From Hymenobacter sp. DG25B (lineage in GTDB: Bacteria > Bacteroidota > Bacteroidia > Cytophagales > Hymenobacteraceae): DNA of 64,000 nucleotides. The stretch is taken from positions 1 to 64,000 of the forward strand of contig NZ_CP010055.1 of NCBI RefSeq assembly GCF_000801315.1, given 5' to 3'. The notes under the pieces are model-generated. The model had not been told where the DNA came from and did not search any database. It worked only from the letters and a program-made list of their open reading frames with translations. Both the position numbers and the translations under genes were made by a program. Below are positions 26,263 to 51,173 of the stretch, in pieces; the stretch's first letter is position 1, and each line of letters starts with the position of its first letter.

Positions 26263-26278
26263 ACACAACCGATTGTGT
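26263..26278. promoter_or_regulatory. Arabinan-regulon operator O1, upstream of GH27
   Basis: ACACAACCGATTGTGT, perfect arms ACACAA/TTGTGT. It lies 197 bases upstream of the GH27 start and just beyond the terminator of the symporter gene. Confidence 0.8.
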
Positions 26279-26290
26279 ACGGCAGGCAAA

Positions 26291-26317
26291 AGGAGGGCGG
26301 AACAGCTCCGCCCTCCT
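26291..26317. terminator. Rho-independent terminator after the symporter gene
   Basis: A perfect 11-bp stem (AGGAGGGCGGA/TCCGCCCTCCT) with a 5-base loop. On the minus strand it is followed by TTTTG. It starts 5 bases past the symporter stop codon and separates the two PUL units. Confidence 0.85.
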
Positions 26318-26322
26318 TTCTG

Positions 26323-28026
26323 CTACCAGAACTTCACGTACAGAGCCGTTATCATCAGCAGCGTCACGACAATCATCGACATCGTGGGCGGACTTACCTT
26401 GAACATGCGCGCATCCACGTGGATGGAACGGGGGTTCACAACCGGCCCGGCCAGGCTCATGCCCACCATCAGTACAAAGGTGAAGGCAAAGGAAAGGCCC
26501 ATGCAGATCAGGAAGGGGATTTCATAACCACCGCGCCCATTGGGGAAAGCCGTGTAGAACCAGGTTTCATGGCCAAAAATGGCCGGCGCGTAGTTGTTGA
26601 AGAATACTGACAGCACAAAGCCCGACAGGATACCGGCAATGCCCGCCTGCGCCGTGGTGCGCTTCCAGAACAGGCCCAGAATAAACACGGCCACAATACC
26701 AGGGGAGATGAAGCCCGTGTACTTCTGAATGTAGGTGAAGCCCCCTTCGCCGCCAATGCCCAGCAGGTCCTTCCAGGTCAGCAGAATGGCCAGGAACATG
26801 GCCGCGAAAACCGTCAGCCTACCCACCCACACCAGTTTCTTCTCATCCGACTCGGGGTGCAGGTAGCGCTTGTAGATGTCCAGGGTAAAAATGGTGGAAA
26901 TGGAGTTGGCCTTGCCGGCCAGGGAGGCCACGATGGCCGCCGTGAGGGCCGCTAAAGACAGCCCTTTCAGACCATTGGGCAGGAACGTGAGGATGGCCGA
27001 GTAGGCGTTGTCGGCGTTGAAGGCGCCCGTCGAGCTCATTTCCGGCTGCAAAGAGCCATTCTTGTGCAGCACGTAAGCCGCAATACCGGGCAGCATCACA
27101 ATCACGGGCATGAGCAGCTTCAGGAAACCGGCAAACAGGATACCGGTACGGGCCGTCTTCAGGTCGGCGCCCAGCGCGCGCTGGGTGATGTACTGGTTGC
27201 AGCCCCAGTAGTTCAGGTTTACAATCCACTGGCCGGCGGCGTACATGGCAATGCCGGGCACCATCAGGTATTTATTGATATCGACCTGGGGCGTGGTGGC
27301 GGTGGGCTTCTCAAAGACCATATGGAAGTGGTCCCCGGCATCATGCATCATGGCGTTGAAACCCGCCAGGGCATCGTGACCCAGCCCAAATTTCTCACTG
27401 ACCAGCGTCAGGGCCAGGTAGGTAGTGGCCAAGCCCCCAATGATGAGCACCGTTACCTGAATGACATCGGTGTAGCCCACCACCTTCATCCCACCCAGGG
27501 TAATGATGAGGGCAAACACGGCCAGGGCCACCATAATCAGGTGGAAGCTTTCGCCCCCGCCAATCAGGTTGCTGATGGCCAGCGCCCCGAGGTAGAGGAT
27601 GGATGTCAGGTTGACCAGCACATACAGGAACAACCAGAAAATACTCATGATCAGGCTCAGGGCCGCGTTGTAGCGCTGTTCCAGAAACTGGGGCATGGTG
27701 TAGATCTTCTGCTTGAGGTAAATGGGCATAAAGAACACGGCCACAATGATGAGCACAATGGCCGCTACCCACTCGTAGGCCGCTACCGCAATGCCCACCT
27801 GAAACCCGTTGCCGGACATGCCGATGAACTGCTCGGCCGAGATATTGGAGGCAATCATGGAGGCGCCAATAGCCCACCAGGTCAGGGAGCCTTCGGCCAG
27901 GAAGTAGTCCTTGGTGTCCATCTGCGCCTTCTGCTTGCGCTTGTAGACGTAGAAGCCGTAGGCGGATACGCCAATCAGGTAAAAGAGAAAAACCGCTAGG
28001 TCCAGCGTGTTAAAGGCATTTTTCAT
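26323..28026 (-). CDS. SSS-family sodium:sugar symporter (SGLT-like)
   Basis: An inner-membrane carrier of 567 residues and about 14 transmembrane helices, of the solute:sodium symporter family near vSGLT. Recognisable blocks are the N-terminal LDLAVFLFYLIGVSAYGFYV, the core motif LTWWAIGASMIASNISAEQF(IGMSG), YLKQKIYTMPQFLEQRY and NLNYWGCNQYITQRALGA. It is the last gene of the mutarotase-araB-araD-araA-symporter set, so L-arabinose is the most likely substrate. Gap to araA is 123 bases. A strong terminator follows. Confidence 0.92.
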   Translation of the reverse strand: MKNAFNTLDLAVFLFYLIGVSAYGFYVYKRKQKAQMDTKDYFLAEGSLTWWAIGASMIASNISAEQFIGMSGNGFQVGIAVAAYEWVAAIVLIIVAVFFMPIYLKQKIYTMPQFLEQRYNAALSLIMSIFWLFLYVLVNLTSILYLGALAISNLIGGGESFHLIMVALAVFALIITLGGMKVVGYTDVIQVTVLIIGGLATTYLALTLVSEKFGLGHDALAGFNAMMHDAGDHFHMVFEKPTATTPQVDINKYLMVPGIAMYAAGQWIVNLNYWGCNQYITQRALGADLKTARTGILFAGFLKLLMPVIVMLPGIAAYVLHKNGSLQPEMSSTGAFNADNAYSAILTFLPNGLKGLSLAALTAAIVASLAGKANSISTIFTLDIYKRYLHPESDEKKLVWVGRLTVFAAMFLAILLTWKDLLGIGGEGGFTYIQKYTGFISPGIVAVFILGLFWKRTTAQAGIAGILSGFVLSVFFNNYAPAIFGHETWFYTAFPNGRGGYEIPFLICMGLSFAFTFVLMVGMSLAGPVVNPRSIHVDARMFKVSPPTMSMIVVTLLMITALYVKFW

Positions 28027-28149
28027 GCGAAGGGTGGGAAGACAGAAGGAATAGCGTGGAAAAAGATACGGGGAGAAGTCTGATTTGAAAGAATAGTCAT
28101 ACTTCGGAAAAAAGCAGAATGCAACGTGGGGACTTCTCCGGGCTTCTGC

Positions 28150-29640
28150 CTACCGCTGGCTGAAGGCTATTTCGTTGTAGCGCAGCTCGTTTTTGAAAGC
28201 CCGCAGCTTGGTTTCATCATCAATGATGAGGTACTCTATGCCAGCCATTTCCGCGAAATCCTCCAAATACTCGGCCGTCAGGTTCTGGCTGTAGCCCGTG
28301 TGGTGGGCGCCGCCGGCCAGAATCCAGGCGGCGGCCCCCGTGCTCAGATCGGGCTTTACTTTCCACAGCACCCGGGCTACGGGCAGCTTCGGCAAATCCT
28401 GCTCCGGCGCAACGGCTTCCACCTCGTTTACCACCAGCCGGAAGCGGTGACCCAGGTCGACGATGGTAGCATTCAGCGCCGGGCCGGCGGGGCAGTTGAA
28501 TACCAGGCGGGCGGGGTCGGCTTTGCCCCCAATACCCAGGGGATGGACTTCGACCTTAGCTTTACCTTCGGCAATACTCGGGCAGATTTCCAGCATGTGC
28601 GAGCCCAGTACCTGCTCGTTGCCGGGCTGGAAGTGGTAGGTATAGTCTTCCATAAAGGAGTTGCCGCCGGGCAGGCCGGCGCCCATCACTTTCATGGCGC
28701 GCACCAGCGCAGAGGTTTTCCAGTCACCCTCGCCGCCAAAGCCGTAGCCCTCCGCCATCAGGCGCTGGGTGGCTATGCCGGGCAGCTGCGCCATGCCGTG
28801 CAGATCCTCGAAAGTATCGGTAAAGCCAATAGCCTTGTTGTCCTGCAGGAACCTGCGCATGCCCACCTCAATTTTGGCGGCCTCAAACAGCGACTGGCGC
28901 TGGCTGCCACCGCTCTTGAGTGACTCGCCCAGCTCATATTCCCGCTCGTAGGTGGCCAGGAGCTCATTTACCTGCTCCTCGCTTACTTCGTTGATAACTG
29001 CTACCAGGTCACCGATGCCGTAGGTATTCACCGAGTAGCCAAACTTCAGCTCGGCTTCCACCTTGTCACCTTCCGTCACCGCTACGTAGCGCATGTTGTC
29101 GCCGAAGCGCACGATGCGCGCCCCCTGCCAGTCGGCCCAGGCGCAGGCCGCGCGGGCCCAGATGCTCAGGCGCTCCTGCACAGCAGCACTCTGCCAATGG
29201 CCTACCACCACCTTGCGCTTGAGGCGCAGGCGGGCCCCAATGAACCCAAACTCCCGGTCGCCGTGCGCCGATTGGTTGGTGTTCATAAAGTCCATGTCGA
29301 TATCACCCCACGGAATGTCGCGGTTGAACTGGGTGTGCAGGTGGGCCAGGGGCTTCTGCAGAATCTTCAGGCCGTTAATCCACATTTTGGCCGGCGAGAA
29401 GGTATGCATCCAGGCCACCAGTCCCACGCAGTTAGCGGTGGTATTGGCTTCCTGCACCAGCTTGGTAATGCCATCGGGGCCGGTTAATACGGGCTTATAT
29501 ACGACCGTAACCGGCAGGGCCTGGCCCAGGGCCGTGGCAATCTGCTGGGAGTGCTGAGCAACCTGCTCCAGAGTTTCCGGGCCGTAGAGGTGCTGGCTGC
29601 CGGTGATAAACCAAACTTCGTACTGAGAAATGTCGATCAT
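28150..29640 (-). CDS. araA: L-arabinose isomerase
   Basis: Converts L-arabinose to L-ribulose in the cytosol. ATG 29640 gives [20 protein letters not shown], the usual beginning of AraA; upstream codons to 29685 are unlikely. About 496 residues, full length. Conserved blocks include [54 protein letters not shown], and [17 protein letters not shown] and [10 protein letters not shown], which contain Glu residues that bind the metal. The His of [10 protein letters not shown] and of [12 protein letters not shown] complete the site. It sits between araD and the symporter on the same strand, 125 bases from araD. A lone half-operator TTGTGT lies at 29697. Confidence 0.97.
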
Positions 29641-29765
29641 GGGAGAAAAGGCAAAAAGAACGTCTGGCGAAGCTGTCCACAGCATTTCGCTGGCGTTGTG
29701 TTATAATTGATTACTGTTGCAGGCGGCTGACTTTTGAAGCTTACACCGGCTAGCAAATGAGAGGC

Positions 29766-30470
29766 TTAGGAGCTTTGTCCGTAGTAGGAGTTGGCGCCGT
29801 GCTTGCGCTCGTAGTGCTTCTGAATCAGCGCTTCCTTCAGGCGGGGCACGTCGGGCCGCAGGGTGCAGCTGAGGTAGGCCATGCGGGCTACCTCTTCCAG
29901 CACTGCGCTGTGGTACACGGCTTTCTCCACGGTTTTACCCCAGGTAAAGGGCGCGTGGTTGCTAAGCAGCACCATTTCCACTTCCTCGGGGGAGAGCCCG
30001 CGACGCTGAAACTCATTGATGATCTGCCAGCCCGTCTGGTGCTCGTAGTCGCCGGCAATCATGGCATCGTCCATGGGCGGGGCGCAGGGCACGTCGGCGG
30101 TCAGGTGGTCGGCGTGGGTGGTTCCCAGAACCGGGATATCCAGCTGCGCCTGGGCCCAGGCCGTGGCATAGGTAGAATGCGTGTGCACAATGCCGCCGAT
30201 ATGCTCCCAATGGCTGTAGAGCACCGCGTGGGTTTTGGTATCGGAAGAAGGACGCTTGCTGCCTTCCACGATGTTGTTGGCGAAGTCCACGATAACGATA
30301 TCATCCGGCCGCAGCGCTGCGTAGGGAACCCCGCTGGGCTTAATGGCAAACACCTGCTGTTCGCGGTCTGCCACGCTGGCGTTGCCGAAGGTGAAGAGCA
30401 CCAGGCCCAACTCGGGTAGCTGCATATTCGCCTCGTAGCAGGTTTGCTTTAGGGCTTGAAAATCACTCAT
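29766..30470 (-). CDS. araD: L-ribulose-5-phosphate 4-epimerase
   Basis: Interconverts L-ribulose 5-phosphate and D-xylulose 5-phosphate. Class II aldolase/epimerase fold, 234 residues. Visible signatures: LVLFTFGNASVADRE, IKPSGVPYAALRPDDIVIVD, GGIVHTHSTYATAWAQA (zinc-binding His pair), GTTHADHLTADVPCA and LLSNHAPFTWGKTVEKAVYH (third His). It begins 2 bases after the araB stop codon, so translation is probably coupled. Confidence 0.97.
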   Translation of the reverse strand: MSDFQALKQTCYEANMQLPELGLVLFTFGNASVADREQQVFAIKPSGVPYAALRPDDIVIVDFANNIVEGSKRPSSDTKTHAVLYSHWEHIGGIVHTHSTYATAWAQAQLDIPVLGTTHADHLTADVPCAPPMDDAMIAGDYEHQTGWQIINEFQRRGLSPEEVEMVLLSNHAPFTWGKTVEKAVYHSAVLEEVARMAYLSCTLRPDVPRLKEALIQKHYERKHGANSYYGQSS

Positions 30471-30472
30471 AA

Positions 30473-32200
30473 CTAAACAGCCATTTCGGTTGCGACTACT
30501 TCTCCAGCGTGCTGCAGAGTTGCCTGCTCTACATAGCTTCCAAAGGCCTGATACTGCTCGTAGCGGCGCTGGTAATCTGCTACCCGGGCGGGGTTGGGCG
30601 TGTAGGTTTCGGCAAAGCCGCTACCCATCACGCGTTGGGCCGTGAGCACATCCGGGTGAATACCAGCGGCTACTGCGGCGTACATGGCCGAGCCCAGCGC
30701 CGGGGCCTGGTCCGATTCTGCCACCTTGATAGGGCGGTTCAGCACGTCGGCCAGCGTCTGCATCAGGAAGCTGGATTTCTTGGCTACCCCGCCCAGCCCG
30801 ATTACCTGCTTGATGGGAATACCTTCCTGCTCGAAGCGCTCCACAATCTGCCTGGAGCCATAGCAGATAGACTCTACCAGGGCCCGGAAAATATGCGGGG
30901 CGCTGGTGCCCATCGTCAGGTTCATGATAGCACCTTTCAGGGCCTGGTTGGCGTCGGGCGTGCGGCGGCCATTTACCCAGTCCAGGGCCAGCACCGCCGA
31001 CTCCTCGGGGTTTACGGCTGCGGCCGCTTTGGTCAGCTCGGTGAACAGCCTGTCGCTCATCTCGGCCTCTAGTGCCGCCTGCTGTTCAGCGGTCAGGTTA
31101 GCTGAAAGAGGCAGCAGGGTGCGCAGGGGCCACTCAATCACCTGGCGGAACCAGGCCAGCAAATCACCTACCGCCGACTGCCCGGCTTCCAGGCCCAGCA
31201 TGCCCGGGATGACCGAGCCATTTACCTGGCCGCAAATACCGGGAACCAGCTTGCCGCCCACTTCCTTCATGGGAGCCACCACAATGTCGCAGGTAGAGGT
31301 GCCCATCACCTTCACCATGGAGTAGGGCTCGATTTCTCCCGCAATTGCACCGGCGTGGGCATCGAAAGTACCCACTGCTACCACCGTCTTGGTGGTCAGC
31401 CCCAGGCGCCGGGCCCATTCCTCTGATAGGGTGCCGGCTACCTCATTGGCGGTATACGTTTCCTCGAACAGGCGCTGGCGCAGGCCACCAAGCTGAGGCT
31501 CCAGTAATGTTAAAAACTCTTCCGAGGGCAGACCACCCCAGCTCTCGTGCCACATGGCTTTGTGGCCGGCGGCGCAGCGGCTGCGCTTAAAAGTAGCCAG
31601 GTCGCCGCCCGTGAGGAGCAGGGTCAGCCAGTCGCAGTGTTCCATCCAGGAATAGGCTGCTTTGGCAACGGCCGCATCCTCCCGGGTTACGTGCATAATC
31701 TTTGCCCAGAACCACTCCGAGGAGTATATGCCGCCTTCAAACTGCGTGAAGTCCTCGCCGCCCCAGGTTTTGGCTTTGTGGTTGATTTCGGCTGCTTCGG
31801 CCAGACTGGTATGGTCTTTCCAGAGCACGAACATGGCATTCGGGTTTTCCTCGAAGCCCGGGGTAAGGGCCAAAGCCACGCCCTGCTCATTGACGGGCCC
31901 CGGCGTGGAGCCGGTGGTATCAATGGCCAGCCCTACAATCTGCTCCGCCGGGACTTGCTGCGCAACCCGGCGCACCGTGGCTTCCAGCCCTTCAATATGA
32001 TCTAACGGGTGCTGGCGAAACTGATTTTTGGCAGCGTTGCAGTAACGCTGGGTTTTCCAGCGGGCGTAGTTATGCACAGCCTGGGCTACTTCGGCGCCGG
32101 TGCGGGCATTTACCAGCAGAGCGCGCACCGAATCAGTGCCGTAGTCGATGCCGATAACGTAAGCTTCCGCGGAGGAAGATGCTGAGTCGGGTGTTTGCAC
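30473..32200 (-). CDS. araB: Ribulokinase (FGGY family)
   Basis: Phosphorylates L-ribulose to L-ribulose 5-phosphate. The protein starts VQTPDSASSSAEAYVIGIDY if GTG 32200 is used; there is no ATG close by, and the codons further upstream read through the end of the mutarotase gene in a poor frame, so the start is uncertain by a few residues. FGGY features: GIDYGTDSVRALLVNARTG (phosphate 1), LAIDTTGSTPGPVNEQG, WKDHTSLAEA, VVAVGTFDAHAGAIAGEIEP, and the C-terminal VIGLGGVAKKSSFLMQTLAD (adenosine motif). About 576 residues, normal. It follows the mutarotase by 43 bases and leads directly into araD. Confidence 0.95.
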   Translation of the reverse strand: MQTPDSASSSAEAYVIGIDYGTDSVRALLVNARTGAEVAQAVHNYARWKTQRYCNAAKNQFRQHPLDHIEGLEATVRRVAQQVPAEQIVGLAIDTTGSTPGPVNEQGVALALTPGFEENPNAMFVLWKDHTSLAEAAEINHKAKTWGGEDFTQFEGGIYSSEWFWAKIMHVTREDAAVAKAAYSWMEHCDWLTLLLTGGDLATFKRSRCAAGHKAMWHESWGGLPSEEFLTLLEPQLGGLRQRLFEETYTANEVAGTLSEEWARRLGLTTKTVVAVGTFDAHAGAIAGEIEPYSMVKVMGTSTCDIVVAPMKEVGGKLVPGICGQVNGSVIPGMLGLEAGQSAVGDLLAWFRQVIEWPLRTLLPLSANLTAEQQAALEAEMSDRLFTELTKAAAAVNPEESAVLALDWVNGRRTPDANQALKGAIMNLTMGTSAPHIFRALVESICYGSRQIVERFEQEGIPIKQVIGLGGVAKKSSFLMQTLADVLNRPIKVAESDQAPALGSAMYAAVAAGIHPDVLTAQRVMGSGFAETYTPNPARVADYQRRYEQYQAFGSYVEQATLQHAGEVVATEMAV

Positions 32201-32243: not shown

Positions 32244-33443
32244 CTACTTGCGCAAGCCGAACTGATAGGTCGTGGAGGACTGCAGCGTCTGGCCCGGCTT
32301 GAGAATGGTGCTGGGGAACTTGGGTTGGTTGGGCGAGTCGGGGAAGTGCTGGGTTTCCAGGCAGAAGCCCGCGTGCTGGCCGTACACTTTACCGCCTTTT
32401 CCCTTGAGCGTACCATCCAGGAAGTTGCCGGTGTAGAATTGGAGGCCCGGCTCGGTGGTGCGCACCTCCATCGTCCGGCCCGAGGTGGGCTCGTAGACTG
32501 TGGCAGCGGCATGCATCCCGGTCGTCTCGTTTAGTACCCAGTTGTGGTCGTAGCCACCAGGTACCTGCCCAATCCGCTCGCCAATGGCGTGGGGCGTGGT
32601 GAAATCAAAGGGCGTGCCCTTAACCGCACGCAGCTCCCCGGTCGGAATCAATCCGGCGTCCACTACCGTGTAGCGGTCGGCGGGAATCGTCACCACATGG
32701 CCCAGGATATCCTTTCCGCTGCCCAGGTTGAAGTAGGCGTGGTTGGTCAGGTTGACGGGAGTGGCTTTATCCGTAGTGGCCGTGTAATCAATCTTCAGCG
32801 CATCATCGGGGGTCAGGGTGTAGACCACCGTCACGGTCAGATTGCCAGGGTAGCCTTCCTCGCCGTCCTTGCTCAGGTAAGTGAGCTGCAGCGTCTGGCC
32901 ATCGGCCGAAGAGCCTGGCTGAGCCTGCCAGAGGACTTTATCGAAGCCTTGCTTACCCCCGTGCAGCGTGTTTGCGCCGTTGTTCTGAGCCAGCGAGTAC
33001 GCCTTGCCATCCAGCGTGAATTTGCCCTGCGCAATGCGGTTGCCGTAGCGGCCGATGAGGGCGCCGAAATACGGCCCGGCCTTCAAGTATGCCGGGCTCT
33101 GGTAGCCACTCACGTTGTCGAAACCCAGCACCACGTCGCCCAGCTTACCATCTTTATCGGGTACGAGCAGGCTTGTGATGATGCCGCCGTAGTTAGTAAT
33201 GCTTACCTGCACCCCGTGCGCGTTGGTTAAAGTGTAGAGTTGAACCTCCTGGCCATCCTGGGTTTTGCCGAAAGGAGCAGACTTAGGCGCAGCGCTTACC
33301 GTGCTGGCGGCCGCCTGGGAAGTATCAGCCATCGTTTGGGTGGTTTTTTTGGTTGACTGCTCAGTGGGCGAGGACTGGTTGCAACTTGTCAGGGCGAGCA
33401 AACCAGCCATTCCAAATAAGCTGACACGTAGTGATGGAATCAT
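32244..33443 (-). CDS. Aldose 1-epimerase (mutarotase), lipoprotein
   Basis: Speeds the interconversion of sugar anomers; here probably prepares L-arabinose for uptake or isomerisation. A signal peptide with lipobox LLALTSC places it in the cell envelope. After a Ser/Thr/Ala-rich linker comes a galactose-mutarotase domain with GALIGRYGNRIAQGKFTLDG, the catalytic His in NLTNHAYFNLGSG and the catalytic Glu in GFCLETQHFPDSPN. 399 residues. It is the first gene of the mutarotase-araB-araD-araA-symporter unit, with operators at 33526 and 33668 upstream. Confidence 0.94.
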   Translation of the reverse strand: MIPSLRVSLFGMAGLLALTSCNQSSPTEQSTKKTTQTMADTSQAAASTVSAAPKSAPFGKTQDGQEVQLYTLTNAHGVQVSITNYGGIITSLLVPDKDGKLGDVVLGFDNVSGYQSPAYLKAGPYFGALIGRYGNRIAQGKFTLDGKAYSLAQNNGANTLHGGKQGFDKVLWQAQPGSSADGQTLQLTYLSKDGEEGYPGNLTVTVVYTLTPDDALKIDYTATTDKATPVNLTNHAYFNLGSGKDILGHVVTIPADRYTVVDAGLIPTGELRAVKGTPFDFTTPHAIGERIGQVPGGYDHNWVLNETTGMHAAATVYEPTSGRTMEVRTTEPGLQFYTGNFLDGTLKGKGGKVYGQHAGFCLETQHFPDSPNQPKFPSTILKPGQTLQSSTTYQFGLRK

Positions 33444-33525: not shown

Positions 33526-33541
33526 AAACAATGGATTGTGT
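33526..33541. promoter_or_regulatory. Operator O2 (degenerate), upstream of the mutarotase-ara unit
   Basis: AAACAATGGATTGTGT: the right arm TTGTGT is perfect, while the left arm and centre differ at two positions. It lies 83 bases upstream of the mutarotase start. Confidence 0.5.
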
Positions 33542-33667: not shown

Positions 33668-33683
33668 ACACAATCGTTTGTGT
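33668..33683. promoter_or_regulatory. Operator O3, upstream of the mutarotase-ara unit
   Basis: ACACAATCGTTTGTGT, an exact match to the consensus. It lies 225 bases upstream of the mutarotase gene; together with O2 it could support looping. The rest of 33444-33745 shows nothing else. Confidence 0.85.
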
Positions 33684-38239: not shown

Positions 38240-38296
38240 GGGAAATCGAAGGAAAAAGATGGTCGGGGCAACAGAAAACAACGATTAGCGCCTGGG

Positions 38297-41470: not shown

Positions 41471-41503
41471 GGGAAAATAAGTGTGGGAAGTAGGGTTGGG
41501 CAA

Positions 41504-41519
41504 GCACAATCGTTTGTGT
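41504..41519. promoter_or_regulatory. Operator O4, upstream of susC
   Basis: GCACAATCGTTTGTGT, one base from consensus. It is 34 bases before the susC start, so it probably covers the transcription start or leader. Confidence 0.82.
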
Positions 41520-41529
41520 TTAGGGTTCT

Positions 41530-41545
41530 TCACAAACGATTGTGT
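41530..41545. promoter_or_regulatory. Operator O5, upstream of susC
   Basis: TCACAAACGATTGTGT, one base from consensus, in the opposite orientation to O4 and 26 bp from it. The remainder of 41546-41782 shows nothing else. Confidence 0.82.
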
Positions 41546-41782: not shown

Positions 41783-42955
41783 TTACCCGGCTACTCTGGT
41801 TGCCTGCACCGGAGCCGGGGCGGGCGTACTACGTGCGGCCAGCAGGCTAATGGCTGCTCCAATGCCGGCTACCAAAGCTAAGGAAACCCGGAGGTTAAAA
41901 ATTTCTGCCACCATTCCGATTAAAGGCGGGCCCAGCAGAAAGCCAAAGAAGCCAACTGTCGTCACAATGGCCAGGGCAACCCCGGGAGAAACCGTGGTTG
42001 CCCGGCCCGCGGCGCTGTAGGCCAGCGGGGTAACGGAGGCAATGCCAAAACCAACCAGCAGAAAACCCAGCAAGGCCGGCACGAAAAAGGGCCACACCAC
42101 TGCCAGTAAAAGCCCGCTGGTAATTAAGGCGCTGCTGATCTGCATCATGCGGGTAGCGCCCAGGCGGTGCGTCAGGTAGTCAGAGATAAACCTTCCCAGG
42201 GCCATGGTACTCATGCAGGCCACGTAGCCTAAGGTTACCAAAGGAGCATCGGGCCGGACCACCTTCTGGAAATACACGCCACTCCAGTCAAACATGCAGC
42301 CCTCGCAGAGCATGCCGCAAAAGGCAATCAGGCCCAGGCGCAGCAGATAGGGCTCGGGGCGCCGCAGGCTGGGGCCGGGCGCATCAGCGCCGGTATCCTG
42401 CCTTACAGTGCGCTGATGCGCCAGCAGCGTAATAACTAGCCCGATGACCATGACCAGCAGGAAATGGCGGAACGGTGGCTGCTCCGCCCGAATCAGCAGG
42501 GTACCTAAAGCCCCCCCCAGAAAGCCGGCCAGGCTCCACAGCCCGTGGAAGGAGGCCATAATGGGCTTATCATAAGCCTGCTGCACTCCAATGGCCTGGG
42601 TATTAACGGATACATTGAGCAGGTTGCCGGCAAAACCAAATACCGCCACACTGGCCGCCAAAGTCCAGAAATTATCCATCCAGCCCAGCAGGGGCAGAGA
42701 GGTAGCATAGAGCCCGGCGGCCAGCATCACTACCACCCGGCTGCCGTAGGTGTGTACTGCCCAGCCCGCCAGGGGAAGCCCCACCAGTGCCCCGGCCGGT
42801 AAGGCCAGCAACAGCTGCCCCAATTCACCCTCACTTAAACGAAGCTTGTGGGCAACATCCGGAATACGGGAGGCCCAGCTGGCAAAGCACAGGCCCGCCA
42901 CAAAAAACAGGGCACTGACGGCCACCCGGCGCTGGTGAGGGGTAATGTCGGACAT
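41783..42955 (-). CDS. MFS transporter (YbjJ/fucose-permease-like)
   Basis: A 12-helix inner-membrane carrier of 390 residues. Features are the N-terminal RRVAVSALFFVAGLCFASWA, motif-A-like LAGWAVHTYGSRVVVMLAAG between helices 2 and 3, and LTHRLGATRMMQISSALITS in the second half. It belongs to the MFS group that includes E. coli YbjJ and is distantly like FucP. Being 51 bases downstream of the transaldolase gene and in the tkt-tal unit, it may carry a pentose or a released side-chain sugar; the substrate is inferred from context only. Confidence 0.85.
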   Translation of the reverse strand: MSDITPHQRRVAVSALFFVAGLCFASWASRIPDVAHKLRLSEGELGQLLLALPAGALVGLPLAGWAVHTYGSRVVVMLAAGLYATSLPLLGWMDNFWTLAASVAVFGFAGNLLNVSVNTQAIGVQQAYDKPIMASFHGLWSLAGFLGGALGTLLIRAEQPPFRHFLLVMVIGLVITLLAHQRTVRQDTGADAPGPSLRRPEPYLLRLGLIAFCGMLCEGCMFDWSGVYFQKVVRPDAPLVTLGYVACMSTMALGRFISDYLTHRLGATRMMQISSALITSGLLLAVVWPFFVPALLGFLLVGFGIASVTPLAYSAAGRATTVSPGVALAIVTTVGFFGFLLGPPLIGMVAEIFNLRVSLALVAGIGAAISLLAARSTPAPAPVQATRVAG

Positions 42956-43006: not shown

Positions 43007-44149
43007 CTAAGCGGTAGTAGCCGCCAGCGCCTCCTGGCGTTTCTGCTCCAACACGGCCAGGAGCTTGGCAAATGGTTCCGAGAACTTGCGGGCCCCTTCC
43101 TCTTCCAGCTGATTGGTCAGCGCAGTCAGGTCCAAGCCCAGCTCGGGCAGGCGAGCCAGGACCTGCTTATCGGCGCCCTCAGATAAACGGCCGGCCGGCC
43201 GGCCTTTGGCGCGATACAGGTCCAGGGTTTCCACCGGAATGGTGTTCACCGTGTTCGGCCCAATCAGGGCTTCCACGTATTTCAGGTCGTCGTACTTGGG
43301 GTTCTTGTTGCCGGTGCTGGCCCAAAGCAGGCGCTGGGGCTGGGCACCCAGCTTACGCAACCTTTCCCAGCGGGGGCCGGCGAAAATCTCCTGGTATATC
43401 TGATAAGCCTGCCGGGCGCTGGCAATGGCCACTTCGCCCACCAGGGAGGCAGCCAGCCCGGCTTGCTCGCCCCCGGCTGCAGCTAACTTTTGCAGCTGCG
43501 GGTCAATCAGCACGTCAATTCGGCTCAGAAAAAAGCTGGCCACCGAATCCAGCCGGGTCACGGGCAGGTCGGCTTTCACCCGGTCTTCCAGGCCAGCCAG
43601 GAAAGCCTCAGCCACTTCCCGGTAGCGGTCCACCCTGAAAATCAGGGTGACGTTGACGTTGACGCCGGCCGCAATCAGGCGGCGAATGGCGGGCAGGCCA
43701 GCCCGCGTGGCCGGCACCTTAATCATGACGTTGGGGCGGTTTACCGCGTGCCAGAACTGCAAGCCCTCGGTTACGGTGCCTTCGGTGTCGTTAATAAGCT
43801 CCGGCGATACTTCCAGGCTGACGTAGCCGTCGCCCCCACTATTGGGCTGATCATATAGCGGGCGCAATAGGTCACAGGCCTGCTGCACATCCGCCACCGC
43901 CAGTTGCGCATAAATCTGCTCGGCCGTGAGGCCCTGCCGGGCCAGCTGACGGATGTCGTCGGCGTAGTCATCACTGCCGGCAATGGCTTTTTCAAAAATG
44001 GCTGGGTTGGATGTCACGCCCCGCAGGCCATCTTCCTCAATCAGGCGCTGCAGCTCCCCGTTATGCAGGATGTTGCGGCGGATATAGTCCAGCCAGATGC
44101 TTTGGCCAAATGAATGAATAGCAACCAGGGGATTAACCGATGAGCTCAT
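43007..44149 (-). CDS. tal: Transaldolase
   Basis: Pentose-phosphate enzyme that moves a dihydroxyacetone unit from sedoheptulose 7-phosphate to glyceraldehyde 3-phosphate. 380 residues, the longer TalAB subgroup. Visible: FGQSIWLDYIRRNIL, GLRGVTSNPAIFEKAIAGSD, VSLEVSPELINDTEGTV, the Schiff-base Lys in NVMIKVPATRAG, and LLWASTGNKNPKYDD. It lies 25 bases after tkt on the same strand. Together they move arabinose carbon from xylulose 5-phosphate into glycolysis. Confidence 0.96.
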   Translation of the reverse strand: MSSSVNPLVAIHSFGQSIWLDYIRRNILHNGELQRLIEEDGLRGVTSNPAIFEKAIAGSDDYADDIRQLARQGLTAEQIYAQLAVADVQQACDLLRPLYDQPNSGGDGYVSLEVSPELINDTEGTVTEGLQFWHAVNRPNVMIKVPATRAGLPAIRRLIAAGVNVNVTLIFRVDRYREVAEAFLAGLEDRVKADLPVTRLDSVASFFLSRIDVLIDPQLQKLAAAGGEQAGLAASLVGEVAIASARQAYQIYQEIFAGPRWERLRKLGAQPQRLLWASTGNKNPKYDDLKYVEALIGPNTVNTIPVETLDLYRAKGRPAGRLSEGADKQVLARLPELGLDLTALTNQLEEEGARKFSEPFAKLLAVLEQKRQEALAATTA

Positions 44150-44174: not shown

Positions 44175-46226
44175 TTAAGAAAGCACCTCTTTGGGCTCAA
44201 TAGCCGCGGGCAGATGCTGCAGTACCAACTGAGCCTGCTTAACCACGTTGTCCACGGAGAAGCCGAACAGCTCCATGACTGCCTCGCCCGGGCCTGACTC
44301 CCCGAAGCGGTTCATGGCAATGACAGTGCCCTCATCGGTGGCGTACTTGTGCCAGCCCATGGGCGAGCCGGCCTCAATAGCCACCCGCTGGCGCACGCTG
44401 GGGGGGAGCACCTGCTGCTGGTAGGCCTTGTCCTGCTTTTCGAACAGCTCCCAGGAAGGCATGCTCACTACCCGGGTAGGCACGCCCTGCTGTTGCAAGA
44501 CGTCCTGCGCTTGCAGGGCCAATGAAACCTCCGAGCCCGTGGCCAGCAGCAACAAGTGAGGCTGGCCGCCCTCAGCCTCGCGAAGAATATAAGCACCCTT
44601 CGCCACGCCTTCCCGGGCTGAGCCATACTGACTCTGGTCCAGCACCGGCAGCTTCTGGCGGGAAAGAATCAGCACCACCGGCGACTCGGGCGTAGTCATG
44701 GCCACGCGCCAGGACTCCACTGTTTCGTTGGCATCGGCGGGGCGCAGCACTACAATATTGGGAATGGTTCGCAGGGCCGCCACCTGCTCCACCGGCTGGT
44801 GGGTAGGACCGTCTTCACCCAGGCCGATGCTGTCGTGGGTGAACACGAAGGTGGCGTTTGACTCGGCCAGGGCCGTGAGGCGGATGGCGCCGCGCATATA
44901 GTCGGAGAAAGTTAGGAAGGTGCCCCCGTAGGTGCGCACGCCCCCGTGGTGAGCCATGCCGTTCATGGCCCCGCCCATGGCGTGCTCCCGCACCCCAAAC
45001 CAGATGTTGGAATGCTCATAGGCCCCGGGCTGGAAGCTCAGATCCCCGCTGGTGGGCATTTCGTTGGAGCTGGCCAGGTCGGCGGAGCCCCCGAACAGGA
45101 AGGGTACGCTTTTCTTGAGGGCATTTAATGCCTTGCCGGAAGCCTGCCGGGTGGCCAGGGCCCCATCGGCGGCGGTAAAGACTGGCAGCGAAGCGTCCCA
45201 GCCTGCGGGGAGCTCTCCCGCAAACGAAGCCCTGAATAGGTCCCACCCCGCCCGGTACTCCTGCTGGTACGCTTCTGTTGTCTGCTGCCACTCTTCCTGC
45301 AGGCGGGCGCCCCGCTGCCCGGCCTCGGCCAGGTGGGTGCGCACTTCTTCAGGCACTATAAACGTTGCTTCCGGGTCGAACCCGAAAAATTCCTTGGCTT
45401 TCTTCAGGTTTTCCGCGCCCAGGGGCGAGCCGTGCACTTTGCTGGTGCCTTCCTGCGGGGAGCCATACCCGATGATGGTTTTCACGGAAATCAGAGAAGG
45501 CCGGCCCGTTTCCTGCTGGGCCGCCCGGATGGCGGCTTCAATAGCGTCCAGGTCGTTGCCGTCCGTGACGCGCTGGGTGTGCCAGCCGTAGGCCTCGAAG
45601 CGGGCCAGGGCATCCTCGGTGTAGGAGAGGCTGGTAGGCCCATCTAGGCAGATGTCGTTGTCGTCGTAGAGGTAAATGAGCTTGCCCAGCTTTAAATGGC
45701 CGGCCAGGGAAGCGGCTTCGGCGGCAATACCTTCCATCAGGTCCCCGTCGCTGACAATGGCATAGGTGTAATGATCCATCAGCGTGTGGCCGGGCTTATT
45801 GTACACGGCCGCCAGGTGAGCCTCCGCCATGGCCATGCCCACCCCGTTGGCAAAGCCCTGTCCCAAAGGCCCGGTGGTAACCTCCACGCCCGGAGTCAGG
45901 TGCGACTCGGGGTGACCGGGTGTTTTAGAGTGCAGGTGGCGGAATGCCTTCAGATCATCCAGGGAAAGATCATAGCCATACAAGTGCAGCAGGCTGTAAA
46001 GCAGCGCAGAGCCGTGCCCGGCGGACAATACAAACCGGTCCCGGTTGGGCCACCCGGGGTCCTGGGGGTTAAAGCGCAGAAATCGGGAGAATAGCACGTA
46101 GGCCATAGGCGCCGCGCCTAACGGCAGGCCGGGATGACCGGAGTTAGCCGCCTGCACCATGTCCACCGACAACAGGCGGATAGTATTCACACTGAGCTCG
46201 GCGGTAGAAAGGGTGGAATTGGTCAC
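44175..46226 (-). CDS. tkt: Transketolase
   Basis: Thiamine-diphosphate enzyme of the non-oxidative pentose phosphate pathway. 683 residues, full length. The N-terminal part has [20 protein letters not shown] and the ThDP motif [20 protein letters not shown] to DDNDI. The middle domain has [16 protein letters not shown] and [20 protein letters not shown] with the cofactor-activating Glu. The C-terminal domain has VLLIL-like [15 protein letters not shown]. It is the first gene of the tkt-tal-MFS unit, with an exact regulon operator 143 bases upstream, so this copy is probably dedicated to arabinose. Confidence 0.97.
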
Positions 46227-46368
46227 GGGAAGGCGGGTTTAAAGGGCAAGAATAGAGGAAGATTTATCGGGCGGGGAGGGTAAATCCAGCCCGCCCGATA
46301 ACCAGTACCTCACTACCCCTGACGGGGGTAAATCTTATGGTCTGAAAAGTAGAAATTAATATCGGATT

Positions 46369-46384
46369 ACACAAACGATTGTGT
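46369..46384. promoter_or_regulatory. Operator O6, upstream of tkt
   Basis: ACACAAACGATTGTGT, the exact reverse complement of the consensus ACACAATCGTTTGTGT. It lies in the gap between tkt and the frameshifted GH43. Confidence 0.87.
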
Positions 46385-46408: not shown

Positions 46409-47414
46409 TTACGGCTGCACAAGGGGCCAGCCGGCGGCATCCCAACTGAGCTTCTCCAGGCGAAGCTTGGAGCGGCCCTGGTCAGCAGCATCGTAGCCGT
46501 GGAAAACCAGATAATCCTGCTTATCGAAGGTATATACCGAGTTATGTCCCAGGCCAAACCAGTTTTTGTCGCCGGCCAGCACCTGCGTGCCGCCGCCTTG
46601 TTCCAGGGCTACGCCTTCCCGGTCTACGTAGGGACCCGTAACGTTTTTAGAGCGCCCCACCATGATTTTATAAGTGCTCTGAGGGCCGCGGCAGCAGTAA
46701 TCGAAAGAAGTAAACAAGTAATAGTAGCCGTTGCGGCGGAAGATAAAGGGCGCTTCAATGGCCCCGTCCCCGGGCAGGGAATCATTCAGCTGGGGTTACG
46801 GGGGCGGCGGGCCAGCGTGCGCCACTGCTCGGGCTGGGCGGGGGCTTGCAGGTCCGGGCGCAGCTGCACCAGCTTGATGCCATCCCAGAACGAGCCAAAG
46901 GAAAGCCAGGGCGTACCGGCCTCATCCCGGATCAGGTTGGGGTCAATGGCATTCCACATATCCCGGCCGGGCACCGACTGCACCACCATTCCCTGGTCTA
47001 CCCACTTGAAGTCCTTGGCCCTGGGGTCCAGGGTTTTATTGGTGGCCAGCCCGATGCAGGAGGTGTTTTTCCCGAAAGCGGATATGGAATAGAACAGGTA
47101 ATATACCCCGTTATGAAAGGAAATATCAGGGGCCCAGATGTGGTTTCTTGTGAAGCCCGGCACAGCCTTGGTGGCCCACTGCGGGGCTGCGGCGAAGATG
47201 GGCTTTTCCGGCCGCCAGTTTTTCCGGTCTTTGGAAGACCATACTGCAATACCGGGCCCGGTGCAGAACATGAAGTAGGTGCCATTCTGCTGAGCCATGA
47301 CCGGGTCGTGGGCCGGAATCAGGGGGAGGAGTCTTTGGGGGACTGGGCCGAGCCGGCCACGCAGCCAGTCAGCAAAACCAGCAGAAATAGGGGCTTTAAC
47401 AGTGAGGAATACAT
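46409..47414 (-). pseudogene. GH43 endo-arabinanase-type lipoprotein, two frameshifts
   Basis: Paralogue of the endo-arabinanase at 33746 but without lectin and sorting domains. ATG 47414 starts a lipoprotein signal (LFLLVLLTGC). Catalytic blocks: HDPVMAQQNGTYFMFCTGPG, HIWAPDISFHNGVYYLFYS, WNAIDPNLIRDEAGTPWLSF, then GAIEAPFIFRRNGYYYLF and FTSFDYCCRGPQSTYKIMVG. The frame breaks near 47322 and 46795; at each, one missing C in a run (CCCCC for CCCCCC; CCCC for CCCCC) restores the protein. If the frameshifts are sequencing errors this is an intact enzyme of about 335 residues. Operator O7 overlaps the start codon. Confidence 0.85.
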
Positions 47415-47426
47415 AAACGATTGTGT
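47411..47426. promoter_or_regulatory. Operator O7, overlapping the GH43 start codon
   Basis: ACATAAACGATTGTGT, one mismatch to consensus. The GH43 ATG (47412-47414 on the minus strand) lies inside its left arm. Confidence 0.75.
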
Positions 47427-47695: not shown

Positions 47696-47726
47696 AAGAG
47701 GAAGGGCAGTGGAAGGAAGGATGGGC

Positions 47727-48716
47727 TTACTTAGCCGGCTTCACACCTTCCGTGGTCATGACTACGCGCTTCATCGTGCCATCCTTGTTGTAGTACAGGT
47801 AGTCGATGCACACCGAGCGGCGGAAGGAGCCCCCGTCGGTGGGGATGCTGCCGTTGTGGTAGATGAAATAGCTCTGCCCCTTAAACTCAATAATGGCCTG
47901 GTGATTGGTATTGGAGTTACCGGCAACTTCATTGAGAATGCCCTTAAACTCCCAGGGCCCTTCGATGCTGCGGCTCATGGCGTAGGCAATCTTCTCGGGG
48001 AACTGGTAGGCGTAGCTCAGGTAGTACCACCCCTTGTTTTTGTGAATCCAGGGGGCCTCCGTGAAGTTGGGCAGGTTGGAAACCTTGTTGATGGGGCCGT
48101 CCAGCTCCGTCATGTTGGGCTTCAGCATGGCCCAGTAACAGTTCGTGTTGCCCCAATACAGGTAGGCCTGCCCCTTATCGTCCACAAAAACGGTCGGGTC
48201 AATGTCATCCCAGGATATGGGACTCTCCGTCATATTATTGGTGATCAATGCAGAGCCCCGGGCATCCTTAAAGGGGCCGGTCGGGCTGTCGGACACCGCC
48301 ACCCCGATGCTTTTACCCGGAATGGAACCGTGCTCCACGGCCACGTACCAGTAGAACTTGCCGTTGCGCTCTATCACCTGCGAAGCCCAGGCATCGGCCT
48401 TGGCCCAGGCAAAGGCCCTTACATTAAGCGGGGAGGGGTGCTCTTTCCAGTTCACCATGTCGGTGGAGGAGTAGCACAGCCACTCGTTCATCACGTAGCG
48501 CTCCTGGCGGGCGGGGGCCTCATCGTGGCCGGCGTAGAGGTACACCGTGCCGTTGTGGACCATAGCCGCCGGGTCTGCCGTGTACTTATCCTTGATGATG
48601 GGGTTGCCAGCCACCGGCACTGCCGTCGTCTGAGCTACCGCGCAACCCGTTGTCAAGGCCAATACACTACTCAGGAAAAGGTTCGCAGCGGGCAAAAGCA
48701 GGTTTTTCAACTTCAT
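47727..48716 (-). CDS. GH43 glycosidase
   Basis: A 329-residue GH43, secreted by a signal peptide with a Cys near its end (LFLSSVLALTTGC), so probably a lipoprotein. Catalytic acids: YTADPAAMVHNGTVYLYAGH (base Asp), WDDIDPTVFVDDKGQAYLYW (Asp) and NFTEAPWIHKNKGWYYLSY (acid Glu). It is a close paralogue of the enzyme at 23196. It lies 12 bases after GH51 and is probably on the same transcript from operator O8. Confidence 0.9.
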   Translation of the reverse strand: MKLKNLLLPAANLFLSSVLALTTGCAVAQTTAVPVAGNPIIKDKYTADPAAMVHNGTVYLYAGHDEAPARQERYVMNEWLCYSSTDMVNWKEHPSPLNVRAFAWAKADAWASQVIERNGKFYWYVAVEHGSIPGKSIGVAVSDSPTGPFKDARGSALITNNMTESPISWDDIDPTVFVDDKGQAYLYWGNTNCYWAMLKPNMTELDGPINKVSNLPNFTEAPWIHKNKGWYYLSYAYQFPEKIAYAMSRSIEGPWEFKGILNEVAGNSNTNHQAIIEFKGQSYFIYHNGSIPTDGGSFRRSVCIDYLYYNKDGTMKRVVMTTEGVKPAK

Positions 48717-48728
48717 GATACTGCTCGC

Positions 48729-50847
48729 TTAGCGCTTGCCGGGAATCCGCAGCACGGTGAAGGAATTGGGGGCCAGCGTGTAGGACACGTTAGCCGAGGA
48801 CACCTTGAACTTCTCCTCCTTGGGGGCCACATTCATGGGCTGCTCCAGGCTGTTCACCGCGTTCAGGTCGTTGCTGGCCAGCACAATGGCCCTGCCGGCT
48901 TTGCCCAGCTTTTTCACGCCCTGCAGATTGATGGTAACCGGGCGGGCTTCGGTGGAGTAGTTCACCAGCTTCACAATGATTTCGCCGGTTTTATCGTCGG
49001 CCACGGCGCTGCTGAACAGGTTGTCCTGGCCATTTTTGGCGTTGTCGCCGCGCTGCACCGGCAGCATGGTGGTGCCGGGGTTGGTGGAGTACATCTTCTG
49101 CACGTAGTAGTTGGGCGTGCCGTAGGACTTCAGGTTGTCAAACCAAATCATATCCGGGGTCCACTGCCAGGCCTCCACGTGGGCAAACAGGGGGGCGTAG
49201 GACGCCATAATCACCTTGTCGGCGTTGCGCTCCAGGCCGGTCATAAAGGCGGCTTCGGAAATGGCCGCATCCCAGCTGTTCTTGTTGTCGGGGGAGCCGA
49301 TGGCTACCGTTTGGGCAGCGTACTCGCCGGCAAAGATCTTGGAGCCGGTGGTGGGGTAGTTGTCATAGCGGCCCACGTTCTGGCGGAACCACTCCGGCTT
49401 GGCGTAGTAGTGCTCGTCAATTACCTCGGCCTTTAGCTCGCGCAGGCGCTTGGTGGCCATGTCGAACAAAGGCCCATCGGGCGCGGGGCCGGCGCTGGAC
49501 ACAATGTTGATGGTGGGGTACTTGGCTTTCACGGCCTTCATAAAGGGCTCGTAGCGCTCCAGGTACTGGGGCCCCACTGCTCATTGCCGATGCCAATGTA
49601 TTTCAGGTTGAAGGGGGCCGGGTGGCCCATGGCCACACGCTTGGCACCCCAGGCGCTGCTGGCCGGACCGTTGGCAAACTCAATCAGATCCAGGGCATCC
49701 TGAATAAAGGTTTCCAGGGTCGGGTCATCGTCGGCGTGGTTATGGCCGGCGGGAGCCGCAGAGGCGCTGGGGCCCGCCGTACCACCCGTGCTGCTGATGG
49801 GAGCCAGCTCGGCGGAGTTAAACTGGCAGGCCATGCCTACGTTCAGAATCGGCACGGGCTCGGCGCCAATGTCTTCGGAAAGCTGGAAGTACTCAAAGAA
49901 GCCCAGGCCAAAAGACTGGTAGTAGTCCGGGGTGGAGCGGTGCTTGAACTCCATGTTCCAGCGGTTCACCAGCGGCACGCGGGAGGCCAGGTCGCCAATG
50001 GTTTCTTTCCACTGGTAGCGCTCCGTCAGGTTGCGGCCTTCCACAATGCAGCCGCCGGGGAAGCGCAGGAAGCCGGGGTTCATATCCTTGAGCAGCTGCA
50101 CCAGATCCGTGCGCAGGCCATTCTCCCGCTTGTTCCAGGTGTCTTTCGGGAACAGGGATACTACGTCCAGGTCCAGGGTGCCCGCGCCTTCCATGGTCAG
50201 CTTCAGGCGGGCTTTGGGGCCGTGCCCGCTGACTTTAATACGGCGGTGTATTTTTTCCACTCCCCGGTAAGGCCGGTGATTTTGGTTTGCGCCAGTACTC
50301 TGCCGGAGACGGCCGCCTCCGGGCCGGGGCCGCGCTGGCCTTCTTCCTCCAGGGTCACGTTCAGCCCGCTCACGCTGCCGGGCCCTTTCCGCAGGTACAC
50401 GGAGAAGGTGTACTCGCCCCCTTCCTTTACGCCCATGCCGCGGAAACCTTCATTTACAAAGCCCGCATCCGGACTGGCCGTGGCCGCCGTCATCCGCAGA
50501 AAGTGGCGGTTGGCATTGCTGATGGGCTCCTGGCTGGATACGGTGTAGGTAGACAGGGCCGCGGCGCCGTTAATACCGCGCCAGCCCAGCAGGTGCTCAT
50601 CCAGCTCAAACGACTTGTTCTTGACCAGCTCCGGGTACAAACCGCCATCCGCCGCGAAGTTGATATCCTCGAAAAAGAGGCCGTACATGGTTTTGGCGAT
50701 GGGTGCGCCGGGCTTGTTTACCTGAACCGTGATGGTGTTGGCGGCATTTTTGGACTGGGACAGGGCCGGGGAATAAACAAACGGGCTGCACAAAGCCAGG
50801 CTGCCGGCCAGCAGGGCAAATCGGGTGGGAGAGGATGGGGGCATCAT
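48729..50847 (-). pseudogene. GH51 alpha-L-arabinofuranosidase, two frameshifts
   Basis: A large exo-enzyme that removes alpha-L-arabinofuranose from arabinan and arabinoxylan. ATG 50847 (or 50844) starts a signal peptide (RFALLAGSLALCSPFVYSPA). N-terminal part: VNKPGAPIAKTMYGLFFEDI, FAADGGLYPELVKNKSFELD and a carbohydrate-binding-like insert. Catalytic barrel: NPGFLRFPGGCIVEG, YIGIGNEQWGPQYLERYEPF with the acid/base Glu, and SKIFAGEYAAQTVAIG with the nucleophile Glu; a C-terminal beta domain ends SFTVLRIPGKR. Frame changes near 50225 and 49567 are each repaired by one extra base (a G after AAAG; a C in CCCC). Intact length would be about 705 residues. Confidence 0.9.
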
Positions 50848-50966
50848 AAAGTAAATGGCGAAGCGCAGAACACCTGGCGGCAAAGAAATACCCGGCCGGT
50901 CTGCCGCAAATGGGAATAAGATGGAAGATCCACTGAGCTGGCCACTGAGATAACAGCAGGCAGCGG

Positions 50967-50982
50967 GCACAATCGTTTGTGT
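50967..50982. promoter_or_regulatory. Operator O8, upstream of GH51
   Basis: GCACAATCGTTTGTGT, one base from consensus, 120 bases before the GH51 start and 191 bp from O9 in the shared divergent promoter region (50848-51187). Confidence 0.85.
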
Positions 50983-51150
50983 AAAGTAATAAGTAAATCT
51001 TAACAATTGGTTAATTTAATCTGAAAATAATTGCGGAGTATTCCTTTCCTAGGGAGGTCGGCTAAGAAGCTATTATGCCTCTCCTACTCGGGGATACGAT
51101 AAAAAATGAGAATATATTTCGGCTTCTGACGCTAGCTTTCCAGATAATCC

Positions 51151-51173
51151 TATCTTTACACAAAGCATTGTGT
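51151..51173 (+). promoter_or_regulatory. lacI-type regulator promoter box with operator O9
   Basis: TATCTTTA at 51151-51158 fits the Bacteroidota -7 box (TAnnTTTG) at 7 of 8 positions. ACACAAAGCATTGTGT at 51158-51173 is an operator with perfect arms and a variant centre, directly on the expected transcription start and 14 bases before the regulator's ATG. This points to self-repression. Confidence 0.7.

Follow-up and report, generated by a model that had tools for sequence, protein, structure and literature searches.

The first 64,000 nucleotides of contig NZ_CP010055.1 of Hymenobacter sp. DG25B (assembly GCF_000801315.1), hereafter the window, carry a cluster of genes for the use of arabinan, a plant cell-wall sugar polymer, next to a gene of the LacI family. 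The analysis indicates, with a probability of about 0.86, that this cluster is an arabinan/L-arabinose regulon of the environmental bacterium Hymenobacter, under one local LacI-family repressor. The original prediction, made from the letters of the window, that one LacI regulator governs the arabinan genes is supported.

In the proposed mechanism, a LacI dimer would occupy, without inducer, ACACAAWCGWTTGTGT-type operators at seven transcription units. These are GH27-GH43-GH127 (GH, glycoside hydrolase family), galM-araBDA-symporter, SusC/D-GH43-GH43, transketolase-transaldolase-MFS (major facilitator superfamily), the second endo-arabinanase gene, GH51-GH43, and lacI itself. At some promoters the operator lies over the –33 position or adjoins the –7 box, and there LacI would keep RNA polymerase out. 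The inducer, an arabinose-derived compound and most likely L-arabinose as judged from the gene content, would release LacI and so switch on the genes for capture, hydrolysis, uptake, catabolism and entry into the pentose-phosphate pathway at the same time. L-arabinose is converted to D-xylulose-5-phosphate, which enters the pentose-phosphate pathway; the presence of the same predicted operator before the transketolase and transaldolase genes fits this route. The sequences show the sites, their conservation, their co-occurrence with the LacI orthologue, the gene content, part of the promoter geometry and the exchange pattern; operon extents, binding, repression and inducer, as well as the ancestral state considered below, are inferred from them.

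Predicted operators of the arabinan cluster

The window was scanned for the 16-bp palindrome ACACAANCGNTTGTGT with up to three mismatches. Ten places were found, as compared to a mean of 1.77 in shuffled sequences, and none of 100 shuffles reached ten. Nine of the places coincide with the nine palindrome positions of the original prediction: 26263, 33668 and 46369 (no mismatch), 41504, 41530, 47411 and 50967 (one mismatch), 33526 and 51158 (two mismatches). The tenth, at 48184, has three mismatches and is located within a GH43 gene. With up to two mismatches, nine places were obtained in the window; over 60 dinucleotide shuffles the mean was 0.08, and no shuffle had more than 1. The centre of the palindrome is CG at seven of the nine listed sites, GC at the lacI site and GG at the weak site 33526. 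An even palindrome with a central CG, as in these predicted sites, is the usual operator form of the LacI/GalR family (PMC4052901; here and below, papers are cited from titles, abstracts and passages).

The exact core, CACAANCGNTTGTG, has six copies in the 4.36-Mb genome (4 contigs). According to the original prediction, a motif just as dense in the rest of the genome would speak against it; for exact sites this was not seen, all six copies lying within the arabinan cluster. In the genome scan, three one-mismatch cores were located outside the cluster, on contig C1, all within open frames of at least 150 codons. The two-mismatch core was not enriched over the whole genome (73 places vs 133 for the reversed pattern). 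Exact cores only were therefore used for counts across genomes, and site 33526, a possible weak second site of the galM-araB-araD-araA promoter, stays uncertain. Sites 47411 and 51158 were kept as predicted operators on conservation across species more than on match score. The window scan gave no site of their own for the GH5-GH43-GH43 genes at 54991-58867, the two GH43 genes of which are at 56102 and 57257. Overall, chance palindromes were ruled out as an explanation by the shuffles, the genome-wide scan and the conservation described below.

Two degenerate two-mismatch palindromes, 168 bp apart, were also seen at 3034922 and 3035090 of contig C1 (genome G000, locus L154), near a GH3 gene and SusC/D. 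They perhaps belong to another regulon.

Gene content of the cluster

The genes named in the original prediction were all identified: SusC/D, GH43, GH51, GH127, GH27, AraA, AraD, an AraB-like kinase, transporters, transketolase and transaldolase. The features are given below with the basis of each assignment in brackets.

21098..23188, minus strand: GH127 beta-L-arabinofuranosidase (Pfam)
23196..24191, minus strand: GH43, closest solved chain Gly43N (Pfam, nearest solved sequence)
24204..26132, minus strand: GH27, closest to beta-L-arabinopyranosidase 4nx0 (Pfam, nearest solved sequence)
26263..26278, minus strand: predicted operator of the GH27-GH43-GH127 operon (motif scan)
26323..28026, minus strand: sodium:solute symporter, SSS (Pfam)
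28150..29685, minus strand: AraA, L-arabinose isomerase (Pfam)
29766..30470, minus strand: class II aldolase-type protein, AraD by context, L-ribulose-5-phosphate 4-epimerase (Pfam)
30473..32160, minus strand: FGGY kinase, AraB by context, start estimated, inside a 679-amino-acid open reading frame (Pfam)
32244..33443, minus strand: aldose 1-epimerase, mutarotase, galM (Pfam)
33526..33541, minus strand: weak second candidate site of the galM promoter, uncertain (motif scan, two mismatches)
33668..33683, minus strand: predicted operator of the galM-araB-araD-araA operon (motif scan)
33746..35467, minus strand: GH43 endo-arabinanase with ricin-type lectin domain and Por secretion tail (Pfam, nearest solved sequence)
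35513..36595, minus strand: GH43, closest solved chain the secreted alpha-L-arabinofuranosidase 3akf (Pfam, nearest solved sequence)
36713..38281, minus strand: SusD-like binding protein (Pfam)
38297..41533, minus strand: SusC-like TonB-dependent transporter (Pfam)
41504..41519, minus strand: second predicted operator of the susC promoter, 26 bp from the first (motif scan)
41530..41545, minus strand: first predicted operator of the susC promoter (motif scan)
41783..42955, minus strand: MFS transporter (Pfam)
43007..44149, minus strand: transaldolase (Pfam)
44175..46226, minus strand: transketolase, tkt (Pfam)
46344..46351, minus strand: –7-like promoter box TACTTTTC of tkt, 20 nt past the TTG of the operator's right half (TAnnTTT offset)
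46369..46384, minus strand: predicted operator of the transketolase-transaldolase-MFS operon (motif scan, conservation)
46412..47414, minus strand: GH43 endo-1,5-arabinanase, frame broken here, one frame in BT730 (Pfam, nearest solved sequence)
47411..47426, minus strand: predicted operator of the second endo-arabinanase gene (motif scan, conservation)
47727..48716, minus strand: GH43, closest solved chain Gly43N, xylosidase/arabinofuranosidase (Pfam, nearest solved sequence)
48729..51006, minus strand: GH51 alpha-L-arabinofuranosidase with CBM4_9-like domain, three frames here, one in BT730 (Pfam)
50967..50982, minus strand: predicted operator of the GH51-GH43 operon (motif scan, conservation)
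51151..51158, plus strand: –7-like promoter box TATCTTTA adjoining the lacI operator (TAnnTTT offset)
51158..51173, plus strand: predicted lacI operator, GC-centre variant ACACAAAGCATTGTGT, 14 bp ahead of the ATG (motif scan, conservation)
51188..52288, plus strand: LacI-family regulator, 366 amino acids, proposed arabinose/arabinan repressor (Pfam LacI and Peripla_BP)

With its SusC/SusD pair and linked glycoside hydrolases, the cluster is a polysaccharide utilization locus. The reading of arabinan as the substrate is supported by the nearest solved sequences, which are endo-arabinanase, beta-arabinopyranosidase and arabinofuranosidase. The comparison covered the GH27 and the five GH43 proteins of the table; two of the GH43 proteins are nearest to endo-1,5-arabinanases, one to the secreted alpha-L-arabinofuranosidase and two to Gly43N. 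The probable start of the SusC-like protein is the ATG at 41470, downstream of both susC operators. Site 50967 falls near the 5′ end of the GH51 frame as listed, the start of which is provisional. The pair of susC operators with its 26-bp spacing is found in the window and at L017, L018 and L027. Perfect operators precede galM or araB also at L032, L042 and L070.

In Hymenobacter sp. BT730 (L016, 4140-6371), an extra 743-amino-acid gene, alpha-galactosidase-like by eye, lies between the endo-arabinanase and GH43 genes. It has no tblastn match in the window.

The LacI orthologue and the predicted operators occur together

The window protein has an N-terminal LacI helix-turn-helix (HTH) and a periplasmic-binding-protein-like sensor domain, the domain pair of the LacI/GalR family. 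Its AlphaFold model has a mean predicted local distance difference test score (pLDDT) of 84, and its closest solved chains are CcpA and PurR. Fold and domains agree with a classical LacI-type repressor, most likely released by an arabinose-derived ligand. An attempt to read the effector from the fold was given up; the Z scores of the model against CcpA, PurR, RbsR, CelR, LacI and B. subtilis AraR differ by a few units, and the match names no ligand.

Orthologues in Hymenobacter reach 92% identity. We compared 80 of the 120 loci encoding LacI proteins, with flanks of up to 10 kb on each side. Fifty-nine are orthologue loci, making 60 proteins (at least 65% identity) when the window is counted, and 21 are paralogue loci. 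In a quick tree of the 81 proteins, the 60 orthologues stand on one side of a branch with a Shimodaira-Hasegawa-like approximate likelihood ratio test (SH-aLRT) value of 99. The recognition helix contains SMTT in 58 of the 60 orthologues (all but L026 and L069) and in none of the 21 paralogues. At least one site with up to two mismatches is present in the flank of 49/59 orthologue loci as compared to 2/21 paralogue loci (L074, L077).

At the genome level, an orthologue was called when the best E value was below 1e-150, a cut-off fixed after the list had been seen. Among 150 family genomes, exact sites were found in 54/54 with a LacI orthologue and in 12/96 without, shared ancestry being uncorrected. 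The scan of relatives for the motif together with the LacI orthologue, which the original prediction had proposed as a check, thus came out in its favour. The 54 orthologue genomes hold 210 exact sites in total vs 25 for the reversed pattern; the 12 other genomes have precisely one site each. Two of these 12 were looked at, and in one of them, G001 (L159), the site is at the end of a long frame. Order-wide, the same cut-off gave an orthologue in 12/194 genomes, all in Hymenobacter, and exact sites were found in 35/194, 23 of those without orthologue.

Many relatives carry several LacI paralogues each, and two paralogue loci are near a site. It could therefore be that a different regulator, for instance a paralogue, owns the palindromes and that this lacI is a bystander. 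We consider this very unlikely. Besides that of the window protein, a single LacI HTH was found in the DG25B genome, near the end of contig C3 (~1-3500; L130, L157), in a gene apparently broken into two frames. The lacI gene has a conserved operator of its own in 13 relatives. Moreover, within the Hymenobacter genus, relatedness being uncorrected, exact sites are present in 49/49 members with orthologue and 0/17 without, though 14 of the 17 have a LacI paralogue at E values up to 1e-60.

Sites outside the cluster were studied in relatives, in 19 regions from ten Hymenobacter genomes, a selection among the exact sites listed. In fourteen of the 19, the site is connected with arabinan-type or transketolase genes. 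Ten have it ahead of an arabinan-type enzyme gene or at the 5′ end of such a gene: GH51 (L138, L146, L147, L149), GH43 (L139, L140, L144, L148), GH42 and GH43 (L145) or GH127 (L135). At L136 it is ahead of a SusC/D pair that immediately follows a GH127 gene, and at L134, L142 and L150 it is ahead of a gene for a transketolase N-subunit, identified by Pfam at L134 and by tblastn at L142 and L150.

These data also bear on the possibility that LacI acts as a global catabolite regulator of the CcpA kind, the arabinan genes being only part of a wide regulon. Its closest solved sequences and folds are indeed those of CcpA, and the CG-centred palindrome of the window resembles cre sites. However, the six exact sites of the genome are in one arabinan cluster, and the off-cluster regions of relatives are mostly at arabinan-type or transketolase genes. 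A global role appears extremely improbable as compared to local control by LacI.

In the three transketolase regions, the two transketolase halves are separated by other genes, with the operator in front. A von Willebrand A protein is encoded at L134 and L142 and a PhyH protein at L134 (Pfam); L150 has the same layout by tblastn only.

Operator conservation and promoter geometry

The 80 loci contain 127 sites with up to two mismatches, 111 of which were assigned to a window-type downstream gene and 16 to none. Four promoter sets were picked from the assigned sites and aligned on the operator. Information inside the operator was 1.86 bits per base for tkt (12 sequences), 1.94 for endo-arabinanase (19), 1.92 for GH51 (12) and 1.98 for lacI (14). 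In the 40-bp flanks of the same promoters it was 0.24-1.12. The operators at these four promoters are nearly invariant while their flanks drift. The GH51 operator is conserved together with the upstream TTATTACTTT in 12 sequences. At the endo-arabinanase site, the right half is kept across relatives as TTTATGT or a close variant. Its ATG is an in-frame start of 331-334 codons in 9/18 relatives and is followed by a stop in the other nine; in the window its frame is open for merely 31 codons.

A candidate lacI site is conserved 11-15 bp ahead of the gene in 13 relatives, 14 bp in the window. Its centre is GC in 13/13 of these relatives and in the window. This GC-centred operator is probably weaker and would set autoregulation, which over three quarters of local LacI regulators show (PMC4052901).

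Promoters of Bacteroides have a –7 consensus TAnnTTTG and a –33 TTTG, the –33 motif not being found in Flavobacterium johnsoniae (PMC7366714); the –7 box is also reported in PMC9723704. In our alignments, TAnnTTT begins 33 bases after the operator start in 7/13 tkt promoters, 2/6 galM-assigned and 1/2 araB-assigned sites, and it adjoins the operator in 10/14 lacI promoters. The background is 0.0014 per position. The window tkt promoter has the box at this offset. As the tkt box is 20 nt past the TTG in the right half, the –33 position falls within the operator. This suggests occlusion of RNA polymerase at some promoters, not all.

LacI might bind the same sites as an activator or a dual regulator, repressing at some promoters only. 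Such a role would agree with the several promoters whose operator is on no recognisable promoter element, and with the 26-bp distance between the two susC operators. On the other hand, positions over –33 or adjoining the –7 box, as in the tkt and lacI sets, are typical of repressors. We thus hold activation or dual control to be unlikely and keep repression by LacI as the preferred reading.

Observations against a single LacI regulon

Several observations weigh against this reading. Shared ancestry and the late choice of the cut-off reduce the weight of the genome counts, and G098 and G136, just beyond the orthologue cut-off, have no site. Ten of the 59 orthologue loci have no site in the flank, some because contigs end. 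In G019 (L160, 5018), the other of the two genomes looked at, a perfect 16-bp palindrome is ahead of a susC-like gene with no orthologue in the genome. In 5/19 off-cluster regions other genes are at the site: a GH35 gene beside SusC/D (L137), a FecR gene beside SusC/D (L143), and, at L141, L151 and L152, genes showing no arabinan-type, transketolase or SusC/D link. As to promoters, the distance from site to start varies from overlap with the start codon (47411) to ~224 bp (33668). The strict box is absent at the window's galM promoter and at 6/13 tkt promoters, and no fixed –7 box was seen at the GH43, susC or GH27 promoters. Finally, two of 11 genes compared with BT730 are frame-broken, GH51 (48729-51006) over three frames and endo-arabinanase (46412-47414) over at least two; each is a single frame in BT730. 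The breaks may be assembly error or true decay.

Relation to known regulators

In Bacteroides, the NrtR-type AraR (BT0354) controls L-arabinose catabolism, transport and a SusC/SusD-endo-arabinanase operon, L-arabinose impairing its DNA binding (PMC4666351, PMC3878776). The regulon proposed here is similar in placing catabolism, transport and SusC/SusD-endo-arabinanase genes under one regulator. However, the Bacteroides protein is a Nudix-winged-helix protein with another operator, whereas in Hymenobacter a LacI protein is proposed and no NrtR domain was found in the DG25B genome. In addition, transketolase and transaldolase carry a predicted operator in Hymenobacter.

The SusC/SusD-endo-arabinanase operon of B. 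thetaiotaomicron is also under a hybrid two-component system (HTCS; PMC4666351, PMC3878776). No HTCS was detected among the window open reading frames scanned, a subset of the total. The genome has one Y_Y_Y match over cut-off, located on C1, and an AraC-type regulator is encoded outside the cluster at 15325-17124.

In Bifidobacterium, the LacI-family proteins AbfR, AauR and BauR are predicted local repressors of arabinofuranosidase and endo-arabinanase genes, and AraQ controls araBDA (PMC5928203). The likeness is one of family and targets; these are Actinobacteria with ATP-binding cassette (ABC) transporters, in which the tasks are divided among several regulators. Within Bacteroidota, LacI regulators include UxaR, UxuR, UxmR and KdgR of Bacteroides (PMC3878776, PMC4052901) and UxuR2 of Algoriphagus (PMC5507952), and xylan polysaccharide utilization loci of Gramella flava hold a lacI gene (PMC5306329). 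They share family, phylum and local sugar control with the window protein, but the genes described in these passages are for uronate or xylan, not arabinan. A review names AraR/XylR, called LacI-family, as repressors of bacterial arabinanase and xylanase genes, so that LacI-family repression of arabinanase genes has already been named (PMC10766802). Shewanella AraR, considered as a LacI-type precedent, was dropped, AraR-II being called GntR-type in the paper. Across titles, abstracts and passages, with subscription papers and RegPrecise outside the scope, we recognised no LacI arabinan regulon in Bacteroidota and no arabinan regulation in Hymenobacter. If correct, the present reading adds a LacI-type arabinan regulon to a phylum in which the passages cited describe AraR, HTCS and extracytoplasmic function (ECF) sigma control of such genes. 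Arabinan use in a large environmental genus would then have a regulator with its operator and a list of targets, and a role would be predicted for the unlinked GH51, GH43, GH42 and transketolase genes of Hymenobacter.

Probable exchange of the arabinose regulator within the family

The original prediction had set LacI control apart from control by NrtR-type AraR, and the family genomes bear out this contrast. The araA gene was found in 86/150, 52 with the LacI orthologue and 34 without. An NrtR domain is within 10 kb of araA in 30 of the 34 (distance 3.1-6.6 kb) as compared to none of the 52, and the LacI gene is within 35 kb of araA in 47/52. The four exceptions are G024 (NrtR on another contig), G034 (113 kb), G102 and G139. 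Two orthologue genomes, G130 and G132, gave no araA match, and in ten members of the genus Hymenobacter an NrtR domain is located elsewhere. The DG25B genome gave no match to NrtR_WHD (winged helix); in place of a Nudix domain with an NrtR/AraR winged helix, the window regulator has LacI domains.

Eight NrtR-type ara loci were fetched. The seven NrtR proteins scanned all have NUDIX, NrtR_WHD and AraR_C domains, and one compared with solved structures is closest to the AraR entries 5bs6/5deq (E 5e-63). These eight loci and L170 (from G034) all carry AAGYGTTAATTTGACA or a one-base variant near araB (9/9). This word resembles the BtAraR site printed in PMC4666351 and is absent from the window. 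Single-locus matches to the BtAraR 18-mer are mostly weak, with 2 to 5 mismatches, and five or fewer were reached in 27/200 shuffles (one region); the assignment of an AraR operator therefore rests on the shared word and its place at araB. A strict palindrome search over the NrtR-type loci gave none in common, the shared word being near-palindromic instead. The AraR-like operator AAGCGTTAATTTGACA has no window match at up to three mismatches. A looser degenerate form was dropped, as it also matched L069 and L112; it had one one-mismatch match in the window, with 2.67 expected.

Overall, the Hymenobacter lineage probably exchanged its arabinose regulator, LacI taking the place that NrtR-type AraR appears to hold in sister genera. 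The simplest reading, made without a species tree, is that AraR control is older and that LacI replaced it. We regard as reasonably likely a takeover in which LacI displaced NrtR-type AraR, the arabinose and arabinan promoters were re-equipped with an unrelated operator, and transketolase/transaldolase as well as, in several species, unlinked arabinosidase genes were brought under the new control. Since LacI-family arabinose regulators are described elsewhere in the passages cited above, the kind of regulator is already known and the exchange is the clear case. The near-exclusive NrtR/LacI pattern represents a clean natural regulator exchange within one family and, if the takeover is true, both end states survive there and are directly comparable.

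Downstream of lacI, at 52298-54908, the window has genes for a DnaQ-like exonuclease and a CBS/cNMP/DUF294 nucleotidyltransferase. A related DnaQ-like/DUF294 pair is located near araA or the symporter gene in the sister NrtR-type loci L161, L164, L165, L166 and L168.

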